IMG/VR virus record: IMGVR_UViG_3300020205_003204
Coordinates: 1-32,706 of that record
Reading direction: 5' to 3' (one strand)
DNA length: 32,706 nt
Source: a virus
This document shows positions 7,011-31,024 of this stretch, piece by piece. The notes beneath the pieces are model-generated. The model was not told the origin of the DNA, ran no database searches, and was given only the letters and a program-made list of their open reading frames with translations. The position numbers were made by a program, and so were the translations under genes. Positions within the stretch are counted from its first letter, which is position 1. Every line of letters begins with the position of its first letter.

Positions 7011-8756
7011 TTATATGTTTTGTATAACCAGCCAGTCATTATTATAGACGGATGTGCTATCTTCTGTCAGGGTAATTGACGAATCATCGGCTACAGATAT
7101 AGATCTTTGTGTATATAGAGCGTAATGCTCAGATACTTTTGTTGAATCAAATGCTGTTGGGTACAGGGCTATATTTTGATATGTTGCAGAAGTTGAGCCT
7201 AAAGTTGATGAATTAAATTTTAAGACACCAGTTCTTGGGCTTGAATATACAATTACAACGTGATGCATTTCTCCAGGAGTTAGGACATTTGATATGTTTG
7301 TCTGAGATGTCTTATTTATACCATTTATATATATTGCAGAAACATTTGTGTTGCTTATTGTTCCAGCCGTGATCCAAGAATAATTTGATACTGGAATTGC
7401 TGATGATATTAAACCGCTATTAGAAAGGGATGAGGGCGTATAAAAAAACTCTATTGTATAGATTAGCGCTTCAGTGTTAATTACAAATCCTGAGTTATCA
7501 AATGTCTTAACTCCATTCCTGCTATCTCTAGAAAGGATGGGATAAATTTTGCTTCCTAGGGTATAAGATGTTGTGTCTAATGCAGAAATATAGTCTGCTG
7601 AATTTGAGGCAAACAAGGTCTGATCTTGATAAAATGTTAAGGCCAATGAGTATAGTCTGGGCAGGTATTTACTTGAATCGGCTGTTGATAAAACAATTTT
7701 TATATATATACCTGTTTGTGAAGAAAAGCTTGATCTAGTAAATCCTGGAATCTGTCCTCCATTTATACAGGACGTATATGTTACTCCATCTAGACTTACA
7801 GATACTGCAATTCCATTTGATCCGTTCCACTCAATTTTAGAAGAGTTGGAGGGTATGCCAGAAGGTATTGAAATAAAGTCATCTAACTGTACAGATGCTA
7901 CTGCTGCTGTATCTGTTTTTATAATTGAAATATATTGTTCTTCTGTATTATAATAAGTTTGATCTGTTATTAGATAATTCCAAGGCTTGTTTCCTGGATA
8001 CGAGTATGAATGAGATGTAGATATATTATTATCATAAGCTTCAAATATTCTGCCTTGGTCTGGAAACGCAACTTGGTATGCTGGTATTGGCTGAATTTCA
8101 GAATAATGATTAAATATTTTTGAAATTGGCAATGCGTGTCTATAAACTGCAGGAGCGTCTATAACAAAAGAATCTGAAGCACTTAGGGTTGGACCCACAT
8201 TAAGTGTTAAACCGCTCTGAGAAAGGCTTGGAAGGTCTGTGACGGATATTGTAGATTTAATCTCACCGTCAACATATAAATTAATTGCTGAAGGAGAATA
8301 TGTTCCAACAATATGATGTGACTTTGAAATATGGGCCAGCGTATGTCTTGCTGTATATTGTCCAAATTTAAATACAACATCTCCAGAGTCATAAAATATT
8401 CCAATAGAGTTTGTTGCATTTCCAAATATTAAAGTTTCATTTGTTGTTGTAATCTTAGGATAAAGCCAAACCTCAAAAGAGCAATCGTTGTCTAATGAAT
8501 TTTTATCCGCCAAACTTGCATACGCAGAACTGCCATAATAATTATTTACTATTGGAAATGAAATAGACTTTGAATTAGTAATTAATGATCCCTGCAATCC
8601 GCCTGGGATTAATGGAAGAAGGCCATTGGTAATCCCTCCAGAATATGTTCCAGAGTTTCCGCAACCAGATATATCTGAGGCTAAAGTTCCAGTGGTTTCA
8701 TCTAAAGCCCAAAAGCCTACTGGGTTATCTTTGATTACTTTAAGTTGATATGACAT
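7011..8756 (-). CDS. LamG/concanavalin-like tail fibre or adhesion protein
   Basis: A 581-residue beta-rich protein. Residues 1-210 form one LamG (concanavalin A-like) domain: VIKDNPVGFWALDETTG, then a CSFEVWLYPKI strand, HHIVGTYSPSAINLYVDGEI, and APAVYRHALPISKIFNHYSE. A second, more divergent copy spans about 390-560 (YTIEFFYTPSSLSNSGLI, GEMHHVVIVYSSPRTGVLKF, YPTAFDSTKVSEHYALYTQR). The middle is a beta-sandwich that may wrap the fibre axis. Phage proteins of this type bind host surface glycans. It is the last gene of the fibre/oxygenase island and has its own leaderless-type promoter directly before the ATG. Confidence 0.75.
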   Translation of the reverse strand: MSYQLKVIKDNPVGFWALDETTGTLASDISGCGNSGTYSGGITNGLLPLIPGGLQGSLITNSKSISFPIVNNYYGSSAYASLADKNSLDNDCSFEVWLYPKITTTNETLIFGNATNSIGIFYDSGDVVFKFGQYTARHTLAHISKSHHIVGTYSPSAINLYVDGEIKSTISVTDLPSLSQSGLTLNVGPTLSASDSFVIDAPAVYRHALPISKIFNHYSEIQPIPAYQVAFPDQGRIFEAYDNNISTSHSYSYPGNKPWNYLITDQTYYNTEEQYISIIKTDTAAVASVQLDDFISIPSGIPSNSSKIEWNGSNGIAVSVSLDGVTYTSCINGGQIPGFTRSSFSSQTGIYIKIVLSTADSSKYLPRLYSLALTFYQDQTLFASNSADYISALDTTSYTLGSKIYPILSRDSRNGVKTFDNSGFVINTEALIYTIEFFYTPSSLSNSGLISSAIPVSNYSWITAGTISNTNVSAIYINGINKTSQTNISNVLTPGEMHHVVIVYSSPRTGVLKFNSSTLGSTSATYQNIALYPTAFDSTKVSEHYALYTQRSISVADDSSITLTEDSTSVYNNDWLVIQNI

Positions 8757-8762
8757 TCTTTT

Positions 8763-8768
8763 ATTATA
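8763..8768 (-). promoter_or_regulatory. Leaderless -10 box of the LamG fibre gene
   Basis: Minus-strand TATAAT followed by six bases (AAAAGA) and then the ATG at 8756, which places the expected transcription start on the A of ATG. No convincing -35 is visible. The same geometry recurs at four other genes in the window. Confidence 0.6.
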
Positions 8769-8777
8769 TACTAATAT

Positions 8778-9371
8778 CTATCTTTTGAAAAAGAATATGG
8801 GCACCATATACTTAGTTCCAGATATTGTTGGTTTTGGATCGTGCAAAACTCCTTCTGAAGCAAAAACAACCACGCTTCCAGCTTCTGGCTTTAATGATAT
8901 GCCGTGATCTGGAAATTCTATTTCTCCGCCCTCATAGTCATCGTTTAAATACATAACCATTGAAACAGTAGATGTATCTTCTGCTCCATCATATGCGTCT
9001 ACGTGGGCCCCCATATGAACACCAACATTATATTTATTTATACCAAAATAAACTGGCAAGTATCCCAAGTCTATTCCAGAACTAGCAGCATACTCTTCAC
9101 CTATTGAGATTACATTTTGTGTAATCATAGAACAAAGTTTGGCATTACTTCTATCTGCATCCGTAATGTTTTGGAACATATTTAAAAAGCATTTTTTTAG
9201 CTTTCCATAAGGGACATTACTGTTTGATGCATTCCACTGCTCCCATTGTGATATTTGAGAAAAGGGGCCCTGAAAAGCATCCATATCTTCAATCTCTTTT
9301 ACAAAAGATTCGGGATCTGCAATAACATTTTTATAGTAATGTATTTCAGGATGTAATATTTCTTTAATCAT
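8778..9371 (-). CDS. 2OG-Fe(II) oxygenase (prolyl 4-hydroxylase-like), copy 1
   Basis: A 197-residue protein started at ATG 9371, which has AAAGGA at good spacing and overlaps the preceding gene by eight bases. An upstream in-frame ATG at 9437 is unlikely. The double-stranded beta-helix core holds the iron triad H123, D125 (GAHVDAYDG) and H177 (GVLHDPK), with K187 (SGTKYMVPIF) as the 2-oxoglutarate carboxylate anchor. YLNDDYEGGEIEFPD (141-155) and KPEAGSVVVF (161-170) are the standard strands. Lys rather than Arg at the anchor is typical of prolyl 4-hydroxylases. The substrate is unknown. It is the last of six such genes in a tightly packed leftward row. Confidence 0.85.
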   Translation of the reverse strand: MIKEILHPEIHYYKNVIADPESFVKEIEDMDAFQGPFSQISQWEQWNASNSNVPYGKLKKCFLNMFQNITDADRSNAKLCSMITQNVISIGEEYAASSGIDLGYLPVYFGINKYNVGVHMGAHVDAYDGAEDTSTVSMVMYLNDDYEGGEIEFPDHGISLKPEAGSVVVFASEGVLHDPKPTISGTKYMVPIFFFKR

Positions 9372-10071
9372 ATTTTCCTTTATAAGATGGAATGTTGCCT
9401 TCTTGTATTGCTTTATCCCATTCTTTATATGTTTCATCTTGCTCTGCTCTAGTTTGTTTTAATTCTTTATCCCATTCAGCTATTTGTTCTGGCGTATAAA
9501 CAGAATCTGCATTATCCCAAAAAGACCCTACAGTGTATCTTTGTGCCTTTCTGACTGTTGTAACCTCATGTTCATTTCCATGGCCGCCTTTAAAAAAAGC
9601 TAGTCTACCAATTTTTGGTTTAATTGTAATATCATGATGCTTAAAGTTTAAATCTCCTCCTTCAAAATCTTCATTTAAATAAAGGAATCCTGCATATTTA
9701 CTTTTATAAAATGCAGAGGGACTTCCATCTTCATGAGTATTATCTGAATGAAAACTTGCAAATGCTCCTATGACCCATTTTTGGGCATGATAACTAACCT
9801 CAGACAAATCCCTTTCAAAACATTTTTCGCCAGCAATTTTAATTTTTTCTTTTAGCTGTGCAAAATAATCTCTGGGTAAACCAAACATCAGGAGGTTGTC
9901 ATCGTGTGGCCAGTACCCCATAGCAAAAGATCCAAAAAATGATATCTGGTTCCAATCTAAAAGGCCAGCTTCATTAATTCCGTCTAAATAATTTATAATT
10001 GCTCTGCATTCTGAAGCTGGTATTAGGTTGTCTACAACAAAAACATCCTCTCTAAGTTTAACTATATCCAT
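9364..10071 (-). CDS. 2OG-Fe(II) oxygenase, copy 2
   Basis: A 235-residue protein started at ATG 10071, seven bases after GGAGGA; the in-frame ATG at 10128 would overlap the neighbour for no reason. The iron ligands are H108 and D110 (SFHSDNTHEDG) and H168 (GNEHEVTTV), with R178 (AQRYTVGSFW) as the 2-oxoglutarate anchor. LYLNEDFEGGDLNF (130-143) is the core strand. After the catalytic domain a charged helical tail of about 45 residues (TPEQIAEWDKELKQTRAEQD) ends in YKGKYD, similar in style to the tail of the next gene. The divergent N-terminal half suggests a substrate different from that of its neighbours. Confidence 0.85.
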   Translation of the reverse strand: MDIVKLREDVFVVDNLIPASECRAIINYLDGINEAGLLDWNQISFFGSFAMGYWPHDDNLLMFGLPRDYFAQLKEKIKIAGEKCFERDLSEVSYHAQKWVIGAFASFHSDNTHEDGSPSAFYKSKYAGFLYLNEDFEGGDLNFKHHDITIKPKIGRLAFFKGGHGNEHEVTTVRKAQRYTVGSFWDNADSVYTPEQIAEWDKELKQTRAEQDETYKEWDKAIQEGNIPSYKGKYD

Positions 10072-10072
10072 T

Positions 10073-10918
10073 CTACATTCCTCCGTTTTTGTTTTCTGCT
10101 GAATCCCATTTTTTTCTGTGTTCTTCAATTTCTTCTTCGGTAAAAGTTACTATCTTTCCATTTTTAAATACTAAGTTTCCAGCGTATAAATCTTTTGCAA
10201 GTCTTTCTTTTTCCATTTCAGCCCACTTAAGTGCACCATATTGAACTTGGTTAGCAAGCCATTCCTTGGAACCTGGATTTGGATACATAATAAAATTTCT
10301 AATTAAATATTTATTTCCATTGGTTGCAGTTTTGACTCCGTGGTAATATGGTTCTCCTGAAGGGAATACCATAATTTCACCAGCTTTTGGCTTATGAGAA
10401 ATAAACTTTCCATCTACATAAAATTCTATATCTCCACCATCATAATTATCATTAATATAAACAGTACATGTTAAAAAGAATTGGTTTCCTGGAATATCTT
10501 TTTCACTTTGCTTAAAATCAGTATGATATTGCATTGTGAGATTGTTTTCAAGAACATCGATATCTGATCCGTACTTACAAAATGATGAGGATGCTAATGC
10601 GGCGCCATCTGGTAACTGCACATTATTTCTTATTAAATAATCATCAATTGCAATATTATATGCATCATAAACTGCTTCTGCAGCCCAATATTCTTTATCA
10701 AAAGTTTCGTTTTGACCTAGTAAATGTTGAACTGCTCCTTTAAATTTAGTTGAAGCATAAGTTCCAAATGAAGCCCAGGGAGTCCACTTGTTAAAATAAT
10801 GTTCTCCTTCTTTTCCTTCGGTAGATTGAATTACCTCAAATATTTCTTTGTGGTCTGGTAACAACCCTTTATAAATTTCAACTTTTGGATATAGTGTTTC
10901 TACTGTAAAATTTGACAT
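10073..10918 (-). CDS. 2OG-Fe(II) oxygenase, copy 3
   Basis: A 281-residue protein whose ATG overlaps the upstream stop as TAATG. The ligands are H132 and D134 (MQYHTDFKQ) and H193 (YYHGVKTATNG). K203 is the probable 2-oxoglutarate anchor, with R207 nearby as an alternative. VYINDNYDGGDIEFYVDG (153-170) and HKPKAGEIMVFPSGEPYYHG (175-194) match the core fold closely. A charged C-terminal extension of about 65 residues (WAEMEKERLAKDLYAGNL, EEEIEEHRKKWDSAE) is unlike copy 1. Long aromatic-rich N-terminal parts such as this often shape the substrate cleft. It may act on a phage structural protein, but that is inference from position. Confidence 0.85.
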   Translation of the reverse strand: MSNFTVETLYPKVEIYKGLLPDHKEIFEVIQSTEGKEGEHYFNKWTPWASFGTYASTKFKGAVQHLLGQNETFDKEYWAAEAVYDAYNIAIDDYLIRNNVQLPDGAALASSSFCKYGSDIDVLENNLTMQYHTDFKQSEKDIPGNQFFLTCTVYINDNYDGGDIEFYVDGKFISHKPKAGEIMVFPSGEPYYHGVKTATNGNKYLIRNFIMYPNPGSKEWLANQVQYGALKWAEMEKERLAKDLYAGNLVFKNGKIVTFTEEEIEEHRKKWDSAENKNGGM

Positions 10919-11595
10919 TACTTATTTGCCTCCAGTTTTGTAATAGTCCAGAACAAAGGTGACGTATACCTTGTTCCTTTTGTAATAACATCAACGCCGT
11001 GAATATAATTTGCATCTCCTACAAAAAAATAGGCTGCTCTTCTTTTAGGCTTAAATGCAATATTGTGTTGAGGAAAATGTAATCTTCCTCCTTCGTAATC
11101 ATCATTAAAATAAATAACTGTTCCTAAATCATACCAGGGGAAATTGCCTGGAGTAAATGCATCTGGTCCTTCGTGCAATTCTTTGTCTGCGTGTGGCCAC
11201 TGCATGCTGCCTACTGGCCATCTAACAAGGCAGGGGCCTGTAGGATAACATTCTACATTAAAATGTTTTTCAATTATTGGCTTAAGTCTTGCATAGATAT
11301 TGTCTAAAGTTTCAGTTATTTTAGGATCACATTTTTCTAAAGAGGGTGTTGTAACAACTCTATCGATCCAAGCATTGGCATCATATATAATATTGCCGTT
11401 TTCATTGTTAGCAGAACTAGTAACATCCCAGGTTTTATTGGTTTTTATAAAATTTAATAAAAACTCACATTCTTCTTCCGTTACAAAATCTTCAAGCTCA
11501 ACAATGTTGTCTTTAGATTTACCAAAATATCCTGAAGGTGTTATAGAAGTTCTTGCAGTTCTAATATCCCAGTCCCAAGTTACTTGTTGCTCCAT
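10918..11595 (-). CDS. 2OG-Fe(II) oxygenase, copy 4
   Basis: A 225-residue protein with GAGGATAAA before the ATG at 11595. The ligands are H135 and D137 (WPHADKELHEG) and H199 (NYIHGVDVITKG), with the anchor R209 (GTRYTSPLFW). VIYFNDDYEGGRLHFPQHNI (160-179) is the core motif, very like copy 1. The N-terminal segment DNIVELEDFVTEEECEFLLN (29-48) is the usual P4H-type lead-in. The tail is short. It follows a DUF6065-like gene and is stop-to-start coupled to copy 3. Confidence 0.85.
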   Translation of the reverse strand: MEQQVTWDWDIRTARTSITPSGYFGKSKDNIVELEDFVTEEECEFLLNFIKTNKTWDVTSSANNENGNIIYDANAWIDRVVTTPSLEKCDPKITETLDNIYARLKPIIEKHFNVECYPTGPCLVRWPVGSMQWPHADKELHEGPDAFTPGNFPWYDLGTVIYFNDDYEGGRLHFPQHNIAFKPKRRAAYFFVGDANYIHGVDVITKGTRYTSPLFWTITKLEANK

Positions 11596-11603
11596 TTTAT
11601 CCT

Positions 11604-12317
11604 CTATTCATACTTCTTTTGAACCCAGGTATGTCTTTTGTATATGCCACCAAATGGCACACGGTACTTACCCGAATTTTTTTCATGTCTTCTAATCATT
11701 TCTTCTTCTGTTACAAAATTATATTCTGCTTTCCAATTTTCCCTTTTAAAAGGAATAATCTGTGCAAAAGGTGTTCCTTTAGGAATAATGCCTGTAAAAT
11801 CTTCTTTAAGAAAAAATGGCATCAATCCTGGAGAGCCATACCTGTCACTATCAATTATACCGTTTGTTGTTAAAAAAGGTAACTCGTATCTATTTAATGG
11901 ATGAACAACTAAAGCGCTATATCCTTCTGGCAAATCAAATCCCCAACTTGGATACCAATGAAATGAATCTTTTCCATATCCTTCTGGATAATTAAATTCA
12001 CCCATAAATGGTCTAGACTCACAAAAATCATCAAAGCCCGTAGAAGAAACTGCAATTTTTTTATCACCCTGTTTATAAATTGCAATATCACAAGGAGTGA
12101 CAAGTAGATATCCAGCACTAAATATATCTAAAAGTGCTGGGCAAGATTTAAATCCCAATCCTTTTTCTTCTGGAGTAACCATATACTCTTGATCATTTTC
12201 GTCTTTCCAATACTTCTTTGCATTTGCAAACCATTCTGGAATTATTTTTTTTGCTGGTACAGGAGTAGTTGAATTGTTATTCGCAACACGGTTAGACCAA
12301 AAAGATATCTTATTCAA
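11604..12317 (-). CDS. DUF6065-related protein, divergent member
   Basis: A 237-residue protein with a TTG start at 12317 behind GAAGAG. Key stretches are GFKSCPALLDIFSAGYLLVT (about 54-73), HWYPSWGFDLPEGYSALVV, HPLNRYELPF and IIPKGTPFAQIIPFKRENW. These line up in order with the neighbouring gene: a CP..GW/GY.L..P segment, a P.N....PF.T segment, and a P-F..I.P segment near the end. I therefore take the two as distant members of one beta-rich family. No catalytic motif is recognised. Embedding between oxygenases suggests a partner or substrate role in the same process, which is inference. Confidence 0.6.
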   Translation of the reverse strand: MNKISFWSNRVANNNSTTPVPAKKIIPEWFANAKKYWKDENDQEYMVTPEEKGLGFKSCPALLDIFSAGYLLVTPCDIAIYKQGDKKIAVSSTGFDDFCESRPFMGEFNYPEGYGKDSFHWYPSWGFDLPEGYSALVVHPLNRYELPFLTTNGIIDSDRYGSPGLMPFFLKEDFTGIIPKGTPFAQIIPFKRENWKAEYNFVTEEEMIRRHEKNSGKYRVPFGGIYKRHTWVQKKYE

Positions 12318-12318
12318 A

Positions 12319-13029
12319 TTAATTCTCTTCTACTCTTAACTTAATTGATTTTACTTCATGGTTTCCTAATTTATTACCCATGTAGTCTACTGCATCACGA
12401 TAATAATCTGTATAGAATCCGCTACCTGTTGCGTTTTTGCCAGCTTCAATTGCGCCTTCCAGGGTTAGTGGAATATCCCTATGAATTTGTTTCATGCTAT
12501 CCATAGGCTTAATCTGTGCAACAGATGAATGTAATTCGGTAAGAGATACGGGCAAGATTGCAATAAATGGCTCATTTGCTTTTATTGTTATTGGGGTAAA
12601 TGGACGAGTTACTCTCCACGAAACTGGCAGCGGACCTTCAAAAAAAGATGAACTCATTAGGGTTGTAAATGGAACTGCTCCATCTACAAAATAATTAGGT
12701 ACTGGATAAGAAAGCAAACTATGGGATTCATCTGTTCTAAATATTAAATTTGTATTAAAGCTAATTGTAGCATTTCCTCTTGCTGTACTACAATATTTTT
12801 CTCCCTGTAATACTTTAACATTATCTCCAGTTGTTGTTACTTCTCCATCCCACATAAATGTTATGTCTTCTGGAAAAGAAAGAGACCAGCCTAATTGATT
12901 TGAAAGACTTAAAGGAAAGCATCTGTAGGCATGCTTTGATGCACTTTCATCCATCCATTGTCTTTTACCAGATAGTGGTTCAATATTTGCTGAATCTGGT
13001 CCAGAGCGATAAACTTCTAAATTAATCAT
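12319..13029 (-). CDS. DUF6065 family protein
   Basis: A 236-residue protein with AGGA nine bases before the ATG. KRQWMDESASKHAYRCFPLS (22-41), then NQLGWSLSFPEDITFMWDGE (44-63), then an FRTDESHSLLSYPVPNYFVDG tract and WRVTRPFTPITIKANEPFIA follow the pattern of DUF6065: R.WMD...AYRC.PL...N..GW, then P.N, then W..TRP, then EPF..I.P. Such proteins occur in bacteria and aquatic phages without a known function, often near 2OG oxygenases as far as I recall. The family call is from memory of its motifs. It follows an oxygenase gene by eleven bases. Confidence 0.65.
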   Translation of the reverse strand: MINLEVYRSGPDSANIEPLSGKRQWMDESASKHAYRCFPLSLSNQLGWSLSFPEDITFMWDGEVTTTGDNVKVLQGEKYCSTARGNATISFNTNLIFRTDESHSLLSYPVPNYFVDGAVPFTTLMSSSFFEGPLPVSWRVTRPFTPITIKANEPFIAILPVSLTELHSSVAQIKPMDSMKQIHRDIPLTLEGAIEAGKNATGSGFYTDYYRDAVDYMGNKLGNHEVKSIKLRVEEN

Positions 13030-13040
13030 ATATAAAGTTC

Positions 13041-13703
13041 CTATTCTTTAATAAGTGAATATTTTTGTTCAATACCACGATACTCTGGAGAATGCGTAGC
13101 AATTGAATAATCAAGCATTGTTACTACAGAATATTTAACACCTTTTGTAACTGGCATTGCAGAATGTGAATAAATAAAAGAAGAAGGGAATAAATAAAGA
13201 TCTCCAGCTTGTGGCTTTATATTAACTCCAAGCTTATCAAAATATAATTCTCCACCCTCATAGTCATCGTTAATATAACCAACAGAAGACAAAACACAAA
13301 CATATGAGTATCCATGATCTGAGTGCACTTGAAAGTGTTGGCCTGGACCATATTTAATAAAATTAAAAGACTCCCAATAACCAAATTGTGGCAAGTGAAA
13401 CATCGTTCTATAATCTTCTACTGCTGAATCTTGTGCGTCTCTACAATCCTGCCAAATTGACTCTAGCTTAATTTGTGATTCTGGTTTTCCTGTATCGTCA
13501 AATACATTTTTTTTGATGTGATGATCCCAACAATCTCTATAAGATTTATTAATTGTTGAATATCCTGTAGCTGCTTCTGCCCAACTTTCTTCATATTTAT
13601 CATCAGATAAAATTTCTTCTAGTCTGTCTATTACATTTAAACCACTAAAAACATTTCTATAAACTATAATACCAGGATATAGTAATTCTGCGTTAGGTAA
13701 CAT
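13041..13703 (-). CDS. 2OG-Fe(II) oxygenase, copy 5 (paired with copy 6)
   Basis: A 220-residue protein coupled to the upstream gene as TAATG. The ligands are H127 and D129 (HFQVHSDHGYSY) and H180 (FIYSHSAMP), with anchor K190 (GVKYSVVTMLDY). YINDDYEGGELYFDKLGV (143-160) and IKPQAGDLYLFPSSFIYSH (162-180) are the core strands. It is clearly a paralogue of the next gene upstream: both share GQHFQ.H.DHG.SYV, the IYSH.AMPV segment and a T.LDY ending. The pair looks like a local duplication that has since diverged. Target unknown. Confidence 0.87.
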   Translation of the reverse strand: MLPNAELLYPGIIVYRNVFSGLNVIDRLEEILSDDKYEESWAEAATGYSTINKSYRDCWDHHIKKNVFDDTGKPESQIKLESIWQDCRDAQDSAVEDYRTMFHLPQFGYWESFNFIKYGPGQHFQVHSDHGYSYVCVLSSVGYINDDYEGGELYFDKLGVNIKPQAGDLYLFPSSFIYSHSAMPVTKGVKYSVVTMLDYSIATHSPEYRGIEQKYSLIKE

Positions 13704-14335
13704 TATGTTAAACTTCTTTCTATTTGATGTTTTCTTTCTATATATTGATCAAATTCTTTTGAATGAGCATCATCATTATAATCAAGCATCGTTGCAAAAC
13801 AATACTTAGTTCCAGACTCAACTGGCATTGCAACATGTGAATAAATAAAAGCAGATGGAAATATATATAGATCTCCTGCTTTTGGAGTTATCCTTAAATT
13901 AAATTTTGGAAAATATAAATCTCCGCCTGTGTAATTATCATTGGGGTATCCTACCAAAGAAACTGTTGATACATACGACCATCCGTGATCAGCGTGCTCT
14001 TGAAAATGTTGTCCTGGATTATATTTAATAACATTAGTCCATTCCCAATAAGTCATGTCTATTGAATACATTTCACAATAATCTTTTACGCAGGGCTCCT
14101 GAACATTATATATGTCTTTATAAAGACTATGTAATTTGCCTAATTTGCTTAGTTTAAAATCAAAACAATTTCTATATTCAGAAGATTCGTCCTCTAAGCC
14201 AACCCTGGCTTTTTCCCAAGACACAACAGAGTTTGAAACTTCTGACTCAATTCTATTTATTAAATTTAAGTCTTCAGTAAAAACATCTGAATATTTCCAG
14301 ATTCCATAAAATAACTCTTCTTTTTTAGAATACAT
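13703..14335 (-). CDS. 2OG-Fe(II) oxygenase, copy 6 (first of the island)
   Basis: A 210-residue protein. The ligands are H114 and D116 (HFQEHADHGWSY) and H167 (FIYSHVAMP), with anchor K177 (GTKYCFATMLDY). YPNDNYTGGDLYFPKFNL (130-147) and ITPKAGDLYIFPSAFIYSH (149-167) form the core. It is a paralogue of copy 5. The ATG at 14335 has no Shine-Dalgarno site. Instead it lies six bases beyond a TATAGT box with a -35 17 bases upstream, so its message is probably leaderless. That promoter would drive the whole leftward row of six oxygenases and two DUF6065-like genes. Confidence 0.87.
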   Translation of the reverse strand: MYSKKEELFYGIWKYSDVFTEDLNLINRIESEVSNSVVSWEKARVGLEDESSEYRNCFDFKLSKLGKLHSLYKDIYNVQEPCVKDYCEMYSIDMTYWEWTNVIKYNPGQHFQEHADHGWSYVSTVSLVGYPNDNYTGGDLYFPKFNLRITPKAGDLYIFPSAFIYSHVAMPVESGTKYCFATMLDYNDDAHSKEFDQYIERKHQIERSLT

Positions 14336-14374: not shown

Positions 14375-15940
14375 TTATAGTAGCTGTGTTGGGCATCCGT
14401 TGTAGGCAAGCATTCCGTCTACAATCAAAAGTCCAAATGGGTCTCTGTAGAACAAATATGTTGTTGTTTCTTTTTCTACAACAGTAATTGATTCAACCAA
14501 AAGATCCTCAAAGTCTGTGTGCGCTGCAGGAGACGCAATTATTATATCTCCTACTTCAATTTCAGAAACAGACTTAAATATAAATTTATTATTTCTATTT
14601 ATTAAAATTACTTCAGATAAAGATAATTCTTTACTAGAGTCTTCATTAAAATATATAGTTTTTGTTTTAAGATCTGTTTTTATATCTGTAAGTTTAGATA
14701 AATTAAATGTTACATTATGTAACCCTTCAGAATTCCACTCAGAAATAATATCTGTACACTTATCAGAAACATATCCAAGAGAACAATTTAAATCTCCAAT
14801 AGGCATGGTATCAAAATTAGCCGTAATTAAATTTTCTCCTATTTCTATATCTTTTGCTTTTTTATATCCATCCTCTGTTAACACTAATGTGTTTTCTGGA
14901 ATACAAAATGCTGGTGGGCCGAAGAATCTTGGTGGTGAGAAGAAGAAGGGTGGAGCAAAGAATCTTGGTGGTGAGAAGAATCTTGGTGGTGAGAAGAACG
15001 ATGGTGGGCCGAAGAAAGATGGTGGGCCGAAGAACGATGGTGGGCCGAAGAATAGTGGTGGGGAAAAGAACGCTGGTGGTCCGAAAAATCCTGGTGGGCC
15101 GAAGAATAGTGGTGGGGAAAAGAATCCTGGTGGGCCGAAGAACGATGGTGGGCCGAAGAATAGTGGTGGGGAAAAGAATCCTGGTGGGCCGAAGAATAGT
15201 GGTGGGGAAAAGAATAATGGTGGAGCAAAGAATAGTGGCGGGGAAAAGAATAATGGTGGAGAGAAGAAAGTAGTAATTGAGTTAGTAGAGGCAGGCAGTG
15301 ACTCTCCATTAGCATTTATAGCCTTAACCGTATAAGTTTGTGTTGTACCCATAGTTTCTCTAATATCAATAGTAGTTGCGGGTACATTTACAAAATACGA
15401 AGGACCTAGGCCTCCTGGTTGAGAAGATGTGTCAGATGAATAAACTGAATAAACCACTATTGGTTTTCCTCCAGTTGCTGGAGCTGTCCAAGAAACAGTA
15501 TCCTGCCCGCGTTGTCCTGGGGTAGTAGTTTGGTCACCTGCCGTGCTATGACCTGGACCAGTTGTTGTAGATACTGCGGTTGCGCTTATAGGGGCCTGAG
15601 GAACTGTTGTAGCAATAACTGGGTCGGAAGCAACAGATGGATTTGATGTTCCATTTGCATTAATTGCAGTTACTGTCCAAGTATAGGATACGCCTGATTG
15701 CAATCCTATAACCGTTATTGGGCTAGATGTTCCAACTTCAGTATAATTTCCAGGCGTTGAAACAACAGTATATGAAGTTACGGCTGCTTGCCCTGATGGA
15801 TAAGTAAAAGAAATAGTGTGTGATCCATTATTGTATGGTCGGTCTACTCCGACATCTACTGCAGTAGGTTTATTTGGACTAGCTGGTGTGTCAAAATCTC
15901 CAGCTAATTGACCAGACTTCTTTCCGCTTCTTTTACCCAT
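14375..15940 (-). CDS. FN3 - (FFxPPx)20 - Hint domain virion protein
   Basis: A 521-residue protein started at ATG 15940 behind AGGAG; the longer frame to 16018 lacks a site and overlaps the neighbour. Residues 21-112 and 115-222 are fibronectin type III-like (VTSYTVVSTPG, YTWTVTAINANGTSNPS, YTVKAINANGESLPAS). Residues 225-344 are 20 perfect FFxPPx hexads. From C346 a Hint (intein/hedgehog-type) domain begins: CIPENTLVLTEDGYKKAKDI is the A block, FKSVSEIEVGDIIIAS the B-block end and YLFYRDPFGLLIVDGMLAYN the C-terminal block with N514. The usual B-block TxxH reads SLSE (440-443) and the penultimate His is Tyr513, so processing may be altered. It is probably a displayed fibre or surface protein. 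Confidence 0.8.
   Translation of the reverse strand: MGKRSGKKSGQLAGDFDTPASPNKPTAVDVGVDRPYNNGSHTISFTYPSGQAAVTSYTVVSTPGNYTEVGTSSPITVIGLQSGVSYTWTVTAINANGTSNPSVASDPVIATTVPQAPISATAVSTTTGPGHSTAGDQTTTPGQRGQDTVSWTAPATGGKPIVVYSVYSSDTSSQPGGLGPSYFVNVPATTIDIRETMGTTQTYTVKAINANGESLPASTNSITTFFSPPLFFSPPLFFAPPLFFSPPLFFGPPGFFSPPLFFGPPSFFGPPGFFSPPLFFGPPGFFGPPAFFSPPLFFGPPSFFGPPSFFGPPSFFSPPRFFSPPRFFAPPFFFSPPRFFGPPAFCIPENTLVLTEDGYKKAKDIEIGENLITANFDTMPIGDLNCSLGYVSDKCTDIISEWNSEGLHNVTFNLSKLTDIKTDLKTKTIYFNEDSSKELSLSEVILINRNNKFIFKSVSEIEVGDIIIASPAAHTDFEDLLVESITVVEKETTTYLFYRDPFGLLIVDGMLAYNGCPTQLL
14909..15268 (-). repeat. 20 tandem 18-bp units encoding FFxPPx
   Basis: Minus-strand 18-bp units with codons for Phe-Phe-(Ser/Gly/Ala)-Pro-Pro-x, 20 in a row without interruption. 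x is Leu, Gly, Ser, Ala, Arg or Phe. Neighbouring units share DNA variants, as expected from unequal exchange. The array ends one Phe before the Cys of the Hint domain. The plus-strand frames opened by the repeat are shadows. Confidence 0.95.
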
Positions 15941-15948
15941 TTTTTCTC

Positions 15949-16449
15949 CTATGCCGTTAAATCGCCAAAAAGCAACCAAGTATTTGGCGCTCTTTTTAAT
16001 AATGTTGCAACAGACCATTTTTGTCTTAATTGCTTTCCTGGTGTTGCATTAATTGTAACACCTGATGATGCTACAACTGTAGTTTGACCAGAATTTGCTT
16101 GAATTATATCTATAGTAGTTCCAACAGGAAAGTTTGTTACGCTATCCAAAGGAACAGTTAAAGTATTTGCAGCGACATTATTCATTTCAATTATACTATC
16201 TCTATCGTCTAAAGACGAAAGGATGTAATTAAAATATTTAACTTTAATTTCAGTTAATGAAGGAGTTCCCTGCTTTGACTGGATTCCATCTGCAAAATAT
16301 ACTACACCTTTTGAAAGGTCTAGGTTACCTAGCAGCCTTGTGTTTCCAGCCAAAGAGGTCACACCATTAAATCCCGCTGAATCAGAAGAGACTAGAGACT
16401 TGACTTCAATAGCATCGTCGTAATTGACTTTAGCTTTATTGATAGACAA
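15949..16449 (-). CDS. Virion structural protein, fibre-associated
   Basis: A 166-residue protein with a TTG start at 16449 behind AAGGAGAAC. It has a short N-terminal part resembling other fibre starts here (NTRLLGNLDLSKGVVYFADG), then VKYFNYILSSLDDRDSIIEM and a C-terminal beta domain: VGTTIDIIQANSGQTTVVAS, then GVTINATPGKQLRQKWSVAT and WLLFGDLTA. This ending is a common phage fibre/baseplate domain in which a noise-free position ends in W.L.GDL. It lies between the 1074-residue fibre gene and the FN3-Hint gene with short gaps, so it is probably co-expressed with both. The exact role is unknown. Confidence 0.6.
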   Translation of the reverse strand: MSINKAKVNYDDAIEVKSLVSSDSAGFNGVTSLAGNTRLLGNLDLSKGVVYFADGIQSKQGTPSLTEIKVKYFNYILSSLDDRDSIIEMNNVAANTLTVPLDSVTNFPVGTTIDIIQANSGQTTVVASSGVTINATPGKQLRQKWSVATLLKRAPNTWLLFGDLTA

Positions 16450-16461
16450 TTTGTGTTCTCC

Positions 16462-19400
16462 TTATGCCTGAGCTTCTGTCCAAGATAATCTTGAGAATAC
16501 TGATACTGTGCTGGAACCAAGATTTGTTACCTGAACTGTAAGTACGTCTGGTCCATCTGGATAGACATTTGTATTGGCAGCAGATCCGCCACCACCTAGA
16601 ATTGCATTTCCAAGATCACGAACTTGACCTAGATCTACTGAGTTTGCACCAGTTCCTACGAAGAATCCTGCAGTGGTTTCACCACCAGATACCGTTGTAG
16701 TTCCACCAGCAAAGTCCGCAATTTGTGCTAATGAAGAGTTAACTGCACTAGCAGCATTTCCAACTGCATTTGTCCAAGTTGTTCCTGAGCTTATTGTACC
16801 ATTTAGAATTGCTGTTACTAAAAGGTTAGCGTTTGCTGTAGTTGTTGTTACATCAAGTGCTCTTAATGTAAGCTGCATTCTGTTTACAATTTCACGTGCA
16901 CCAAATGCTGCAGCAATACCGTTATCTACTGAAGGAGCTACACGAATTGCCATAAGAGCTTTTGTTTGTCCTGCGGTAAGAGATGTTGCAGTTCTCTGTC
17001 CATATGTAAAGACGAGAGACTTATCGTCATCAAAGCGGCCATCCATAATAACTGATGTTCCCCAGTGTGAAATTGATGCTGCAAATGTTGGGAATGCTAA
17101 TTCAACACATGTTGGTGCTGTCTCAGAATATGTAAACAATTGAGCTGATGTTGCGCCCATTGGAACAAATATCACTCCAGTTGGATTTGCAGAAAGTGCT
17201 GCTTGTGAGAAAGTTACATCTGTACCATTAATTTTAGAAACATATGTTCCTTCAGGGAAAGCTGTAGAAATTACTCTCATACCTACTTGTAGGTTTGTTA
17301 CTGTAACTCCAGCAGCGCTGTTAGAACCTACTGCAATTGTAATAGATGCACTTGCTTCTCCAGATTTTCCTCTTGTTAGACCAGTAAATGTGCCAGATGT
17401 TGCTCCTCCGCTGAATGTAACGTTTCCGCTAACTGCAGAAGTGTTTGCAACTGATAAAGTAATAACTGTGCCATTAACATTTGTAATTGTTGATCCATAA
17501 CCAATACCTGTACCAGATGCGGCCATTCCAACAACTAATCCTGAATTTGATGCAACAACAATTGTACCCACACCGCTTGTGCCTGTAGCTGTAGTTGTAT
17601 AAATACCTGTTGATTGTGTTTTACCAGTGTAATTTACATACTCATAAGTTGATGCGTTTCTAATTACAAGTGTTCCAGCGTCTGGAAATCTTGTTGTATC
17701 TGCAACTGAAAGTGCTGAGTCTGTAGTTAATACGTCTACTTTTGTAAATGTATATGGAGGTGTTGTTGTAGATTCATATCTTCCTGGAAGGTTTCCAGAA
17801 CGCATATATGCCTCTGTATTAGCATTGTTGTTAGGCATTTTGTGTACATAAACAACATTACCCTTTGGTCCTCTTACACCCCATCTTACGAAACCTGCGC
17901 CATACCATGTATAGTCAATATAGAACATCTGCATTTTACCTAAGTCTAGGTTATATTGTGATGGTCCTGTTCCGTCTAGTTTATCAATATTAAATTGTGA
18001 TTGAGAAATACGAACTTCCTGAGTTTTTGAGACTATTGCATAATCTGTAGTAGTACCACGATATGCAGGAGTAATTGTCATAGAAGTGTTAGATGCAATA
18101 TCTTGAACCTTATAAGACTGTCCTCTAATTACAATAAAATCTCCTGGGGCAAGTTGCTTTGCAAAATATGTTGGAAATGTTCCAGATGTTTGTGTAACAA
18201 GTCCTGTTCCATTTGTTACACTGATTTTTCCAGAAAGCTGGAAAGTAGAAGATCTTTTAACAGCATATAGTTGGTTTCCATCGTATTCAAAGAATAAACC
18301 ATTTTGGCTATCAAATCCGCCAAGCCTGTTTTGGCATCCTGTCCAGCTTTCTACTGATGCATAGAATGGCCCAGTAGCAATAGATGTTGCTGGTGTAGAA
18401 GTTGGTGTATACTGAAATTTATCAAAACCAATTATACTTGTAATAGTATAAGTACCATTAAACTGATACTGATCGCATCCACCAATTTTAACAACTGTTC
18501 CTGGCTGTATGTTATGCTTTTCTTTTGTTTGAACCGTAACAACAGATCCGTCCCAAGTAAGGGAATCAATTCCTGCGTATGGTTTTAAAATTGTTCCAGA
18601 TGAAAACTGAAGTCCTTTACCTGACTGGTAGCGGAAATAACGTCTTGTCTGTCTAATTGCTGAAGCATAATTTGATCCAGAATTAGTTCCAAAAATAACT
18701 CCACCGTCTGCTGGTCTATGCATAAATGCTGCTTGTGGTCTTACATAAATTTGACCTGTAGTAATTGTTCCTGTTGGAATTGCCTCAGCATAATATGAAA
18801 ATGATGTAGAGCTATGAATTTGTGCAACTTCCATATTACCATTTGGTGTATTTGTTGATGCGTTAGTACCAGTAACCACAATTTCATTTCCTAAAGCTAA
18901 TCCGTGAGGAATTGTTGTTGTTACAGTAATTTTTCTTCCAGAATATGTCATTGTTGGAGTTCCGCCAATTTGTGCACCAGTAAATAATGCTCCTGTAGAA
19001 ACTATTGTTTTGTTTGCATCAAAGATTGCTGTGATTTGAGTTGTATTTATTGCTGATGCTGTATATGTAAAGGAAGATCCTCCGCCACCAGACTCTACAA
19101 TAAAGTTACCATTTGCTGCCTGCAGATATGTGTCTTGAACAACAATTGGAGTATTATTTGCTGGAGATGTACCTGATGCAAGTGTTACTGTGACTGTCTT
19201 AGATCCATTAGCCATTGCAATTCCTGAAATATTTGCAATTTGTGTTGGGCTTGTATAAGAAAATGGTCTATTGTTATAAAGACCAAGGTTTTCCCACTTT
19301 GAAATCTGTGTACCGTATTCAAAATCGGTATCGATAAGAGACTGTGGCGTTGTTACTCTTAATTTATTAGTTGCGTCTAGCAGTGATTCTGCTGGCTCAA

Positions 19401-19686
19401 ATTTTTCAGCATATTCATCAATTGTAAATGAAAGCTTGTCTGTTGAAAGCATTGCTGCTGTATTGTAACTTAATACAATTGTGGTAGACTCGTTTAAGCT
19501 TGCATCTGTATTTGTGATGTATGATGTTGCCTTTAAGCTTGGGTCTGAGAAGTTATAAATAACTTGATTGGATGTTACATTTGTAATAAGCAACAATCTT
19601 TCTCTCAAAATTGTCTTTGGAATTACAACCGTATTTGATGAGGGTGTAAATGTATATGCTGTTTCTAATAAAATTTTTCTTGCCAT
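16462..19686 (-). CDS. Large virion structural / fibre protein, 1074 residues
   Basis: A 1074-residue protein with AGGAG ten bases before the ATG. The N-terminus (about 1-110) is a beta domain with LRERLLLITNVTSNQVIYNF. Several ubiquitin-like small repeats follow: TVTTTIPHGLALGNEIVVTG and VVTVQTKEKHNIQPGTVVKI are two copies of a beta-strand unit seen in phage baseplate proteins. Residues near 345-370 (RYFRYQSGKGLQFSSGTIL) match a segment common in large structural proteins of aquatic phages. The 680-850 part is Gly/Thr/Ser-rich with further strand repeats. No enzyme motif is seen. Its size and position suggest a baseplate spike or long fibre trunk. Confidence 0.7.
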   Translation of the reverse strand: MARKILLETAYTFTPSSNTVVIPKTILRERLLLITNVTSNQVIYNFSDPSLKATSYITNTDASLNESTTIVLSYNTAAMLSTDKLSFTIDEYAEKFEPAESLLDATNKLRVTTPQSLIDTDFEYGTQISKWENLGLYNNRPFSYTSPTQIANISGIAMANGSKTVTVTLASGTSPANNTPIVVQDTYLQAANGNFIVESGGGGSSFTYTASAINTTQITAIFDANKTIVSTGALFTGAQIGGTPTMTYSGRKITVTTTIPHGLALGNEIVVTGTNASTNTPNGNMEVAQIHSSTSFSYYAEAIPTGTITTGQIYVRPQAAFMHRPADGGVIFGTNSGSNYASAIRQTRRYFRYQSGKGLQFSSGTILKPYAGIDSLTWDGSVVTVQTKEKHNIQPGTVVKIGGCDQYQFNGTYTITSIIGFDKFQYTPTSTPATSIATGPFYASVESWTGCQNRLGGFDSQNGLFFEYDGNQLYAVKRSSTFQLSGKISVTNGTGLVTQTSGTFPTYFAKQLAPGDFIVIRGQSYKVQDIASNTSMTITPAYRGTTTDYAIVSKTQEVRISQSQFNIDKLDGTGPSQYNLDLGKMQMFYIDYTWYGAGFVRWGVRGPKGNVVYVHKMPNNNANTEAYMRSGNLPGRYESTTTPPYTFTKVDVLTTDSALSVADTTRFPDAGTLVIRNASTYEYVNYTGKTQSTGIYTTTATGTSGVGTIVVASNSGLVVGMAASGTGIGYGSTITNVNGTVITLSVANTSAVSGNVTFSGGATSGTFTGLTRGKSGEASASITIAVGSNSAAGVTVTNLQVGMRVISTAFPEGTYVSKINGTDVTFSQAALSANPTGVIFVPMGATSAQLFTYSETAPTCVELAFPTFAASISHWGTSVIMDGRFDDDKSLVFTYGQRTATSLTAGQTKALMAIRVAPSVDNGIAAAFGAREIVNRMQLTLRALDVTTTTANANLLVTAILNGTISSGTTWTNAVGNAASAVNSSLAQIADFAGGTTTVSGGETTAGFFVGTGANSVDLGQVRDLGNAILGGGGSAANTNVYPDGPDVLTVQVTNLGSSTVSVFSRLSWTEAQA

Positions 19687-29398: not shown

Positions 29399-29551
29399 AT
29401 GACAAGAGATCATTTTTCCCAACAAATGAGCAATCCTTATTTTCAAACAAAACATTACGAGGAAGAGTCTGTCGGCACGGAATTAGAAAAGTCTATTGAG
29501 AAAAAAATCTTAAAATTAATTAAAAAGGTGTGGAGACGCAAAAATGTTTAA
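29399..29551 (+). CDS. 50-residue basic protein, leaderless
   Basis: A short frame (MTRDHFSQQMSNPYFQTKHY...) whose ATG lies six bases after an extended -10 box and which has no Shine-Dalgarno site. The N-terminal half is polar. The C-terminal half (LEKSIEKKILKLIKKVWRRK) is a strongly basic amphipathic helix that could bind nucleic acid or membrane. It overlaps the start of the oxygenase gene by eight bases, so it may also serve as a leader that couples translation to that gene. No family recognised. Confidence 0.6.
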   Translation: MTRDHFSQQMSNPYFQTKHYEEESVGTELEKSIEKKILKLIKKVWRRKNV

Positions 29552-30092
29552 AGGGTTACCAGGAATAATAAAGATTGCTGATGAAATATTTTTGTATAAA
29601 AACTTTGTAAGCAAAGAAGAGGCTAAAGATCTACATAATGCTTGTTTAAATTACCCTAATGACATCTGGAATGATACTATAAATCCAATCGAATGGTATA
29701 ACAATAAAACAACATCTCCCGTAGAAGAAGCACAGGGTCTTCTTTTAAAAATACAAGAACTGGTAAAAGATACCCATACCGCTACACAATCTCTTTCTTT
29801 TATGAGAATGTTTCCTGGTGATGAAATGCATGTTCATACGGATACCTGCGGAGATGATCAGCCAACTGCAAATGATCATTTTGAAACTTGTGCTATAACA
29901 GAATATGGCGTTGTGCTTTATTTAAATGATTGTTTTAACGGGGGAGAAATTTACTATCCCGATTTAAATTTAGAATATAAACCAGAGGCTGGGGATCTGC
30001 TTATTCATCACGCAATGATTAACCATGGGGTAAAAAAAGTAATTGAGGGCGTAAGATACTCTTATCCTACATTCTTAATTAAAAATACTTAA
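29544..30092 (+). CDS. 2OG-Fe(II) oxygenase, copy 7 (rightward)
   Basis: A 182-residue protein, the only oxygenase in the window on the plus strand. The ligands are H98 and D100 (MHVHTDTCGDD) and H161 (MINHGVKKVIEG), with anchor R171 (GVRYSYPTFL). VVLYLNDCFNGGEIYYPDLN (123-142) and YKPEAGDLLIHH (145-156) are the core strands. An ATGTTTAA overlap with the 50-residue gene suggests coupled expression. It is more compact than the clustered copies and may act on a different target. Family certain by motif, substrate unknown. Confidence 0.85.
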   Translation: MFKGLPGIIKIADEIFLYKNFVSKEEAKDLHNACLNYPNDIWNDTINPIEWYNNKTTSPVEEAQGLLLKIQELVKDTHTATQSLSFMRMFPGDEMHVHTDTCGDDQPTANDHFETCAITEYGVVLYLNDCFNGGEIYYPDLNLEYKPEAGDLLIHHAMINHGVKKVIEGVRYSYPTFLIKNT

Positions 30093-30140: not shown

Positions 30141-30425
30141 TTATTGAATTGTTCTCTTGCCCCATGCTTTGTGATATTTCTCATCCTCTGTAAATTCGTA
30201 CAGTAGATCCATTAACAACTTACAGTTAGAATGGCTTTCTAGGTACCAGATGTCACAGTACCCTTGAGAAGTGTTTAAACATTCGGCTAAACGCCCTTGT
30301 AGCCGTTCTACGGCCCATTCTAGGGCGGCGGTAGCCAGTAAAGTATCAGCCATATAATAATTACATTCTCTATATCTAGCATCCTTAAATCTTTTGACTA
30401 ATTCGTGGACGATAGACGGATTCAT
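30141..30425 (-). CDS. Helical hypothetical protein
   Basis: A 94-residue protein whose ATG overlaps the stop of the oxygenase gene upstream as ATGA, so the two are translated together. It is predicted mostly helical (VHELVKRFKDARYRE, TAALEWAVERLQGRLAECL, CKLLMDLLYEFTEDEKYHKA) and has four cysteines without a metal-site pattern. No family recognised. It faces the rightward oxygenase gene tail to tail; 48 bases separate them. Confidence 0.65.
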   Translation of the reverse strand: MNPSIVHELVKRFKDARYRECNYYMADTLLATAALEWAVERLQGRLAECLNTSQGYCDIWYLESHSNCKLLMDLLYEFTEDEKYHKAWGKRTIQ

Positions 30426-31024
30426 ATATGTATACTACTACGATTAAATGCGAATGTAGCCAGAGTATATCTTTCTCCAGAAGTTACTTTTTTAACTCCG
30501 TGAATATATTCTTCTTTTCCGCTGTGAACTAATATAGTATTAGGTTTAGGTTTAAATGTCATGTTTTTCTCAGTATATGATACTTCTCCACCTGTGTATT
30601 CATCATTAATATAAAAGATAACTCCGTAGAGCATTTCTGATCCTTCAGGTAGAGTTCCGTAAGCATTATCCCAGTGTGGATTTAAAGACCATTCCTCATC
30701 ATCCCACCAAGTAGATCCTTCTACCTTAGGGTTAGACTTAGAAGTATATCTATTAACATTATAATGGGGGTGGTGAACAGCAATATCCGAATTCACTAAT
30801 TCAGCCATAGCTAGATTCACTTTATGTAAAGCCCAAGAAGCTTTTTCTTCAGATACGTGTTTAGTATTATTGTTCCAAAGGGATTCCGACTCTAAACCTA
30901 GAACTGAGACCCATTCTCCAGAATTCTTGCAAAAGTCTTGTAGTGCAAGAAGTTCATCTGGTTCAAGGATATCTTCTACATAGAATATCTCTGGATCTAG
31001 ATACTTAATTTGGTTTTGGTTCAT
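30422..31024 (-). CDS. 2OG-Fe(II) oxygenase, copy 8
   Basis: A 200-residue protein. The ligands are H117 and D119 (NPHWDNAYGTL) and H175 (EYIHGVKKVTSG), with anchor R185 (GERYTLATFAF). VIFYINDEYTGGEVSYTEKN (135-154) and FKPKPNTILVHSGKEEYIHG (157-176) are the core. YHNV-type aromatic residues line the N-terminal part. The ATG overlaps the end of a 49-residue membrane gene. It is separate from the six-gene island and so probably early expressed, since it follows the control region near 31.7 kb. Confidence 0.85.
   Translation of the reverse strand: MNQNQIKYLDPEIFYVEDILEPDELLALQDFCKNSGEWVSVLGLESESLWNNNTKHVSEEKASWALHKVNLAMAELVNSDIAVHHPHYNVNRYTSKSNPKVEGSTWWDDEEWSLNPHWDNAYGTLPEGSEMLYGVIFYINDEYTGGEVSYTEKNMTFKPKPNTILVHSGKEEYIHGVKKVTSGERYTLATFAFNRSSIHI

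Follow-up and report, generated by a model that had tools for sequence, protein, structure and literature searches.

What is the fate of a phage protein whose long rod of FFxPPx hexads ends in a Hint domain, and what is the substrate of the oxygenases encoded directly downstream of it? These questions are raised by a locus in the IMG/VR record IMGVR_UViG_3300020205_003204, a stretch of 32,706 nucleotides with a GC content of 36%, which we call the window. The preliminary description of this DNA dealt with the array-Hint protein; the oxygenase cluster, which lies outside the coordinates considered there, is a stronger finding than that protein alone.

Gene and protein layout

The array-Hint gene occupies positions 14375..15940 of the minus strand and encodes 521 residues, starting at the ATG at 15940. 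A GGAG Shine-Dalgarno-like motif is found close upstream of this ATG, and the start position is common to relatives such as locus L002; the open frame itself extends further, to an ATG at 16018. Still on the minus strand, the gene encodes two FN3-like domains at about residues 25-224 (15269..15868; two stretches matching Pfam fn3, E 1.8e-8), then 20 FFxPPx hexads of exact period 6 at residues 225-344 (14909..15268), a putative rod and probable hydroxylation substrate, then the single residue F345 (14906..14908), and finally the Hint domain, which runs from C346 to the end, stop codon included (14375..14905). The open reading frame, the coordinates, the residue numbers and this succession of two FN3 domains, hexads and a Hint domain opened by C346 had all been given exactly in the preliminary description. 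F345 is the first phenylalanine of a would-be 21st hexad, in which Cys1 of the Hint domain replaces the second phenylalanine; by analogy with the inteins of PMC6333167, F345 is taken as the (-1) residue and the bond that follows it as the predicted scissile bond.

F1, F2, P4 and P5 are unchanged in 20 of the 20 hexads, which is far beyond chance, with a few synonymous codon differences at the F and P positions; at position 3 only S, A or G occurs. Over 130 distinct arrays, one of these three residues fills position 3 in 94%, and Gly fills position 6 in 43%. One might think of a collagen-like triple helix, as a small residue is found in part at every third position, but we reject this structure because the array does not have Gly at every third residue. 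In the full-length AlphaFold model most of the FN3 and Hint parts is predicted with confidence, the FN3 part as two beta domains with pLDDT mostly >90; the array is modelled without confidence, at a pLDDT of about 45 as a monomer.

The Hint fold

Is the C-terminal domain a Hint domain? Searched on its own, the window domain has no confident match in Pfam, and its relatives match Intein_splicing and Hint families with scores under the curated thresholds. A profile built from 46 family members finds the bacterial intein-like (BIL) structure 2lwy in PDB at 9e-8, with matches to several inteins between 4e-5 and 1e-3; for the scan of our collection two clade alignments were used, the 46-member alignment being too diverse. 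The AlphaFold model of the domain (pLDDT 93, pTM 0.88) matches BIL2, 2lwy, the Mtu RecA intein and Hedgehog with VIA Z of 14-15 over 129-136 residues, and Foldseek agrees. Structure prediction, which the preliminary description had named as a check on its C-terminal Hint domain, returns that fold, and as modelled the C-terminal domain of the window protein is a Hint domain.

The best profile and fold matches are the BIL domains (PDB 2lwy, 6y75), which share with the window domain the Hint fold, Cys1 and an extein-like flank. Unlike them, the window domain is the last part of a phage repeat protein, with Glu in place of the block-B His and Tyr in place of the penultimate His. The autoprocessing domain of Hedgehog (1at0; VIA Z 14.3 to the window model) is likewise a C-terminal Hint domain with N-terminal thioester chemistry. 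Hedgehog has a sterol recognition region after its Hint domain, whereas the window protein terminates 7 residues past the terminal Asn and has no such region.

Active-site residues and predicted self-cleavage

Which chemistry might this domain retain? Active-site residues were counted over a non-redundant set of 104 Hint domains from the family. All but one of them (103/104) open with a nucleophile at residue 1, Cys in 93 cases and Ser in 10; given this conservation and the Hint fold, acyl-shift chemistry at the array-Hint junction is likely. The block-B His is kept in only 21 of the domains (Glu in 46, Gln in 36), having been lost in about 80%. The terminal Asn is found in 82 and His-Asn in 54, the penultimate His being lost in about half. 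Block B of the window protein reads SLSE, which departs from the T/S-x-x-H of the Hint superfamily, and the clade to which it belongs has an invariant Cys1, Phe(-1) together with Glu at the block-B His position throughout, and a Y-N-G-C end. The preliminary description was correct about SLSE and about the Tyr before the final Asn, both of which are clade-wide. It suggested that the chemistry may be altered or slow, but slowness need not follow, since Phe(-1) can replace the block-B His (PMC6333167).

Friedel et al. reported that where the block-B His is lacking, bulky (-1) residues, including Phe, make up for it in the N-S acyl shift and drive cleavage at the N-terminal junction (PMC6333167). 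In the Ssp DnaB M86 intein carrying H73A, N154A and S+1A, N-terminal cleavage was 90% with Phe(-1) versus 1% with Gly, and the block-B His is not found in every active intein that has a bulky -1 residue (PMC6333167). As Phe(-1) is able to stand in for this His, self-cleavage of the window protein between F345 and C346 is favoured by analogy. Within the family, a bulky -1 residue accompanies the block-B Glu in 33 of 46 Hint domains and the block-B His in 2 of 21. The correlation of Phe(-1) with loss of the His has p 0.001 over 70%-identity clusters and a non-significant p 0.17 over 50% clusters, and is therefore suggestive only; some members without the His carry Lys, Gly or Pro at -1.

Could the domain be dead, serving only as a folded cap or trimer foot with a decayed active site? 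The frequent losses of the block-B and penultimate histidines would fit such a decay, but decay would be expected to reach Cys1 too, and residue 1 stays Cys or Ser almost without exception while the neighbouring catalytic positions vary. We regard a dead Hint domain as unlikely.

Might the protein be spliced? The window protein ends in N-G-C, so that the terminal Asn is not directly followed by the Cys, Ser or Thr of a splicing intein, and among the 104 domains the tail after this Asn is mostly 1 to 11 residues long and rarely has a splicing nucleophile. One can imagine a Cys+2 variant, in which the thioester would pass to C171 of Y-N-G-C, the Asn-Gly would cyclise, and the short Gly-Cys tail would be joined to the rod. 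Asn-Gly is chemically prone to succinimide formation, and every member of the window clade has N169, G170 and C171 (Hint numbering). However, the +1 residue is Gly, the penultimate His is Tyr, the tail is conserved no further than NGC, and C171, which is missing in other clades, might just as well form a disulfide with C1, C41 or C50. Because there is no +1 nucleophile we reject splicing, to which, the Cys+2 variant included, we give very little credence.

Variation of another kind is seen elsewhere in the family. In the Ser1 Hint clade (L012, L020, L027, L037, L063, L076, L099, L123) the block-B His is kept, and the end is mostly Phe-Asp rather than His-Asn. The Hint domains of L021, L024, L085, L280, L322 and L323 terminate where His-Asn would be (IVIS or LVIA followed by the stop codon), and would therefore carry out N-terminal chemistry only.

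A family of aromatic-proline array proteins

How widespread is this kind of protein? A DNA pattern for four hexads detects FFxPPx arrays in at least 120 IMG/VR stretches, and has only four matches in 84,980 bacterial and archaeal genomes; these four look spurious, being short or frame-shadow ORFs, with one N-masked stretch. The preliminary description had proposed a search for FFxPPx arrays beside Hint domains in aquatic phages; such a search finds a large family, and the window protein belongs to this aquatic-phage family. The N-terminal modules of the array proteins are FN3, PASTA-like or long Ig-like regions. The C-terminal modules after the array are exchangeable, and include Hint with Cys1, Hint with Ser1, an S74 chaperone, a Cys-rich tail, and a short tail or none. 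In L015, a PASTA-like protein with 11 FFxPP units, an S74 intramolecular chaperone (Pfam 1.7e-10) is found where the Hint domain would be. The Peptidase S74 or endosialidase chaperone is a C-terminal, self-removing module of phage fibres, and in L015 it takes the same place after the array; its fold and chemistry are unrelated to those of Hint, and the Pfam search of the window protein does not find it (PF13884).

Where Hint domains of the family lack FFxPPx, another aromatic-Pro array mostly stands before them, such as FSVFGFSP, YSFTP, FFPP or SFPTFP. L211 and L223, which are one contig (IMGVR_UViG_3300047560_000767), have a YSFTP-type array with Hint twice and, unlike FFxPPx arrays, no oxygenase cluster. 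L058 (record G047, 204,904 bases) encodes a PASTA-like protein in which FFxPPx units are followed by a Cys-rich tail; the record has 7 oxygenases and no detectable relative of the window's portal.

Does the family support a Hedgehog-like, ligating Hint domain, in which the Cys346 thioester would be attacked by an amine or alcohol of a virion protein or the host wall, leaving the rod covalently attached? Thioester chemistry is plausible from the fold and the conserved nucleophile, the FN3 and PASTA-like modules suggest surface binding, and the members that end at IVIS or LVIA would be confined to N-terminal chemistry, as in Hedgehog. Yet the window protein ends with its Hint domain and lacks a nucleophile-binding domain such as the sterol recognition region, nothing points to an acceptor, and many array proteins function without any Hint domain. 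Shedding of the Hint domain by plain cleavage is a simpler account than covalent cross-linking, and relatives swap Hint for the self-cleaving S74 chaperone or for nothing. Ligation is, to our mind, quite improbable.

Have such proteins been described? The preliminary description knew of no described phage system of this layout. As regards the FFxPPx array this holds: a literature search, made mostly without subscription journals, turned up no publication about the array or about the oxygenases linked to it, and tblastn of the full array-Hint protein against cultured phages gave no match. It does not hold for the joining of a fibre to a C-terminal Hint domain, which is already annotated in phage NCTB, and in BFVD related proteins from uncultured phages are named PASTA, FN3 or Hint. 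In NCTB, a surface-water phage, BN7874_136 (LT598654.1), a "putative phage tail protein, contains intein domain", combines a repeat fibre, an Ig-like region and a C-terminal Hint domain, as in the array family; it differs in having collagen-like Gly-X-Y instead of FFxPPx and in retaining TxxH and HN. No oxygenase cluster was found within the 8.4 kb of NCTB examined. Directly after this tail protein, NCTB encodes another Hint-like protein, which stands alone and has no evident Cys1 (L128 3965-4426).

Genomic setting and host

The portal is 56-58% identical to those of Streptomyces phages of the Stanwilliamsviridae, a similarity that suggests an actinobacterial host; the host is probably among freshwater actinobacteria. 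The interval between the ribonucleotide reductase and portal genes holds a LysM endolysin in the Streptomyces phages and an island of fibre, array and oxygenase genes in the window. Upstream of the array gene, also on the minus strand, 15949..16449 encodes a structural protein whose C-terminal half is like tail-fibre and virion proteins (phrog_18179 virion structural, 1.4e-15; phrog_8780 minor tail, 1.2e-11), and 16462..19686 encodes a virion structural protein (phrog_5838, E 0), as context for the fibre island.

The oxygenase cluster

The array gene opens a closely packed minus-strand run, in part with overlapping genes, that also holds six 2OG-Fe(II) oxygenases (8778-14335), a DUF6065 gene and one more gene. 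Oxygenase 1 (13703..14335, HxD...H...K; PF13640 8.5e-10) and oxygenase 2 (13041..13703; PF13640 9.1e-13) are followed by the DUF6065 protein (12319..13029; PF19541 2.8e-35) and a second non-oxygenase gene (11604..12317; no Pfam match), and then by oxygenase 3 (10918..11595, HxD...H...R; PF13640 5.9e-4, under the Pfam cut-off when taken alone), oxygenase 4 (10073..10918; PF13640 1.4e-9), oxygenase 5 (9364..10128; PF13640 8.6e-10) and oxygenase 6 (8778..9437; PF13640 1.1e-11). Five of the six pass the PF13640 cut-off, and all six have HxD...H plus K or R. The DUF6065 gene and its neighbour (window 11604-13029) have counterparts at the same place of the cluster in L002 (7859-9283, the neighbour being 8570-9283). 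Two more 2OG-Fe(II) oxygenase genes lie outside the cluster, at 29544-30092 and 30422-31024; the latter is without HxD in the alignment and may be inactive, and HxD...H plus a basic residue is retained in 7 of the 8 oxygenase copies of the window.

Prolyl hydroxylation as a post-translational modification is best known from collagen. The best PDB relatives of the oxygenase profile are prolyl 4-hydroxylases and prolyl 3-hydroxylase 1, at 2e-14 to 4e-14. Hydroxylases of collagen and proline-rich substrates (3itq, 5hv0, collagen P3H1) have the 2OG-Fe(II) fold profile and the HxD...H...K/R in common with the window oxygenases. In contrast to the prolyl 4-hydroxylase systems, the window has six paralogues beside one array gene, and its array is without Gly at every third residue.

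Co-inheritance of arrays and oxygenases

Do the oxygenases belong with the array? They lie downstream, 5.2 on average, in 100 of the 101 array+Hint loci for which 4 kb or more of downstream sequence is available, many of these contigs being near copies. A less biased sample is that of the portal-protein relatives, 42 of which have the region sequenced, the two Streptomyces phages among them being counted on 31-33 kb loci only. Where an aromatic-Pro array is present there are 5-10 oxygenases (18/18), and where it is absent there are 0-1 (24/24). On the portal tree each label, array and oxygenases, changes 7 times, at least 4 of the changes being forced by well supported branches, and array and oxygenases are concordant in 4/4 independent pairs, a number on which a sign test cannot reach 0.05. 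Records without a recognisable relative of this portal (G047, G050, G051, G052, G071) have arrays with 3-7 oxygenases. G038 and G039 were considered as exceptions to the rule and rejected as such, both having other aromatic-Pro arrays (FFPP/FPTFP) with Hint, and 7-10 oxygenases. Aromatic-Pro arrays are, then, co-inherited with the oxygenase cluster. Since the oxygenases are retained where the Hint domain is missing (L283, L286, L287, L290, L319), and since the array-free L251, with its collagen-like Gly-X-Y fibre, is not accompanied by the cluster (0-1), they track the aromatic-Pro rod and not the Hint domain.

The array gene and the oxygenases are adjacent, so that joint gain and loss could be cassette exchange without any relation of enzyme to substrate. 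The oxygenases would in that case modify something else, such as a host glycan, a nucleotide or another fibre, and a shared, exchanged host-range island would explain their adjacency to the array. 2OG-Fe(II) oxygenases also modify other residues and molecules, and the weak matches in NCBIfam point to PKHD-type dioxygenases, both of which count against the rod as substrate. The physical linkage to the array gene, the position of the island between ribonucleotide reductase and portal, unlike in BillNye and Genie2, and the two 2OG genes outside the cluster all agree with such exchange. Against it, members of the same clade that have other fibres and no array, of which L251 is one, do not have the cluster, and the different aromatic-Pro arrays of G038 and G039 have it as well. 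We think another substrate somewhat unlikely, though a reading to be taken seriously. It is from co-inheritance only that we infer hydroxylation of the rod by the cluster oxygenases.

A possible mechanism and its significance

How might these parts act together? The array-Hint protein would serve an actinobacterial phage as a modular fibre or adhesin, in which two FN3 domains bear a rigid FFxPPx rod. The six prolyl-hydroxylase-like oxygenases, whose genes follow immediately downstream, would be co-produced with it and act on the hexad prolines, and hydroxylation would harden or functionalise the rod. The Hint domain would be an autoprocessing module, in which Cys346 attacks the carbonyl of F345, with steric strain from Phe(-1) replacing the lost block-B His; the thioester would then be hydrolysed, and the Hint domain shed after folding or assembly. 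To this combination, a modular fibre with a rod hydroxylated by its own oxygenases and a Hint domain shed by self-cleavage, we assign a probability of about 0.5; the virion location, the cleavage, the hydroxylation and the order of events are what we infer. The array, unstructured in the monomer model, counts against it. A more elaborate version would have a dedicated phage system with a hydroxyproline aromatic-Pro rod, its own five to seven prolyl hydroxylases, and a Hint domain whose cut at Phe-Cys leaves a reactive end that becomes covalently attached to a target; that whole chain strikes us as distinctly improbable.

The modular fibre with a hydroxylated rod and a self-removing Hint domain, if real, suggests an undescribed, chemically modified phage fibre. 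Phages would then have a private prolyl-hydroxylation line for a fibre, with Hint chemistry as a built-in maturation step. The Hint family would also allow the published result, that bulk at -1 can substitute for the block-B His of inteins, to be tested in nature. The aromatic-Pro rod would provide a concrete substrate hypothesis for some of the abundant 2OG-Fe(II) oxygenases that aquatic phages encode, which annotations usually class as auxiliary or unknown.
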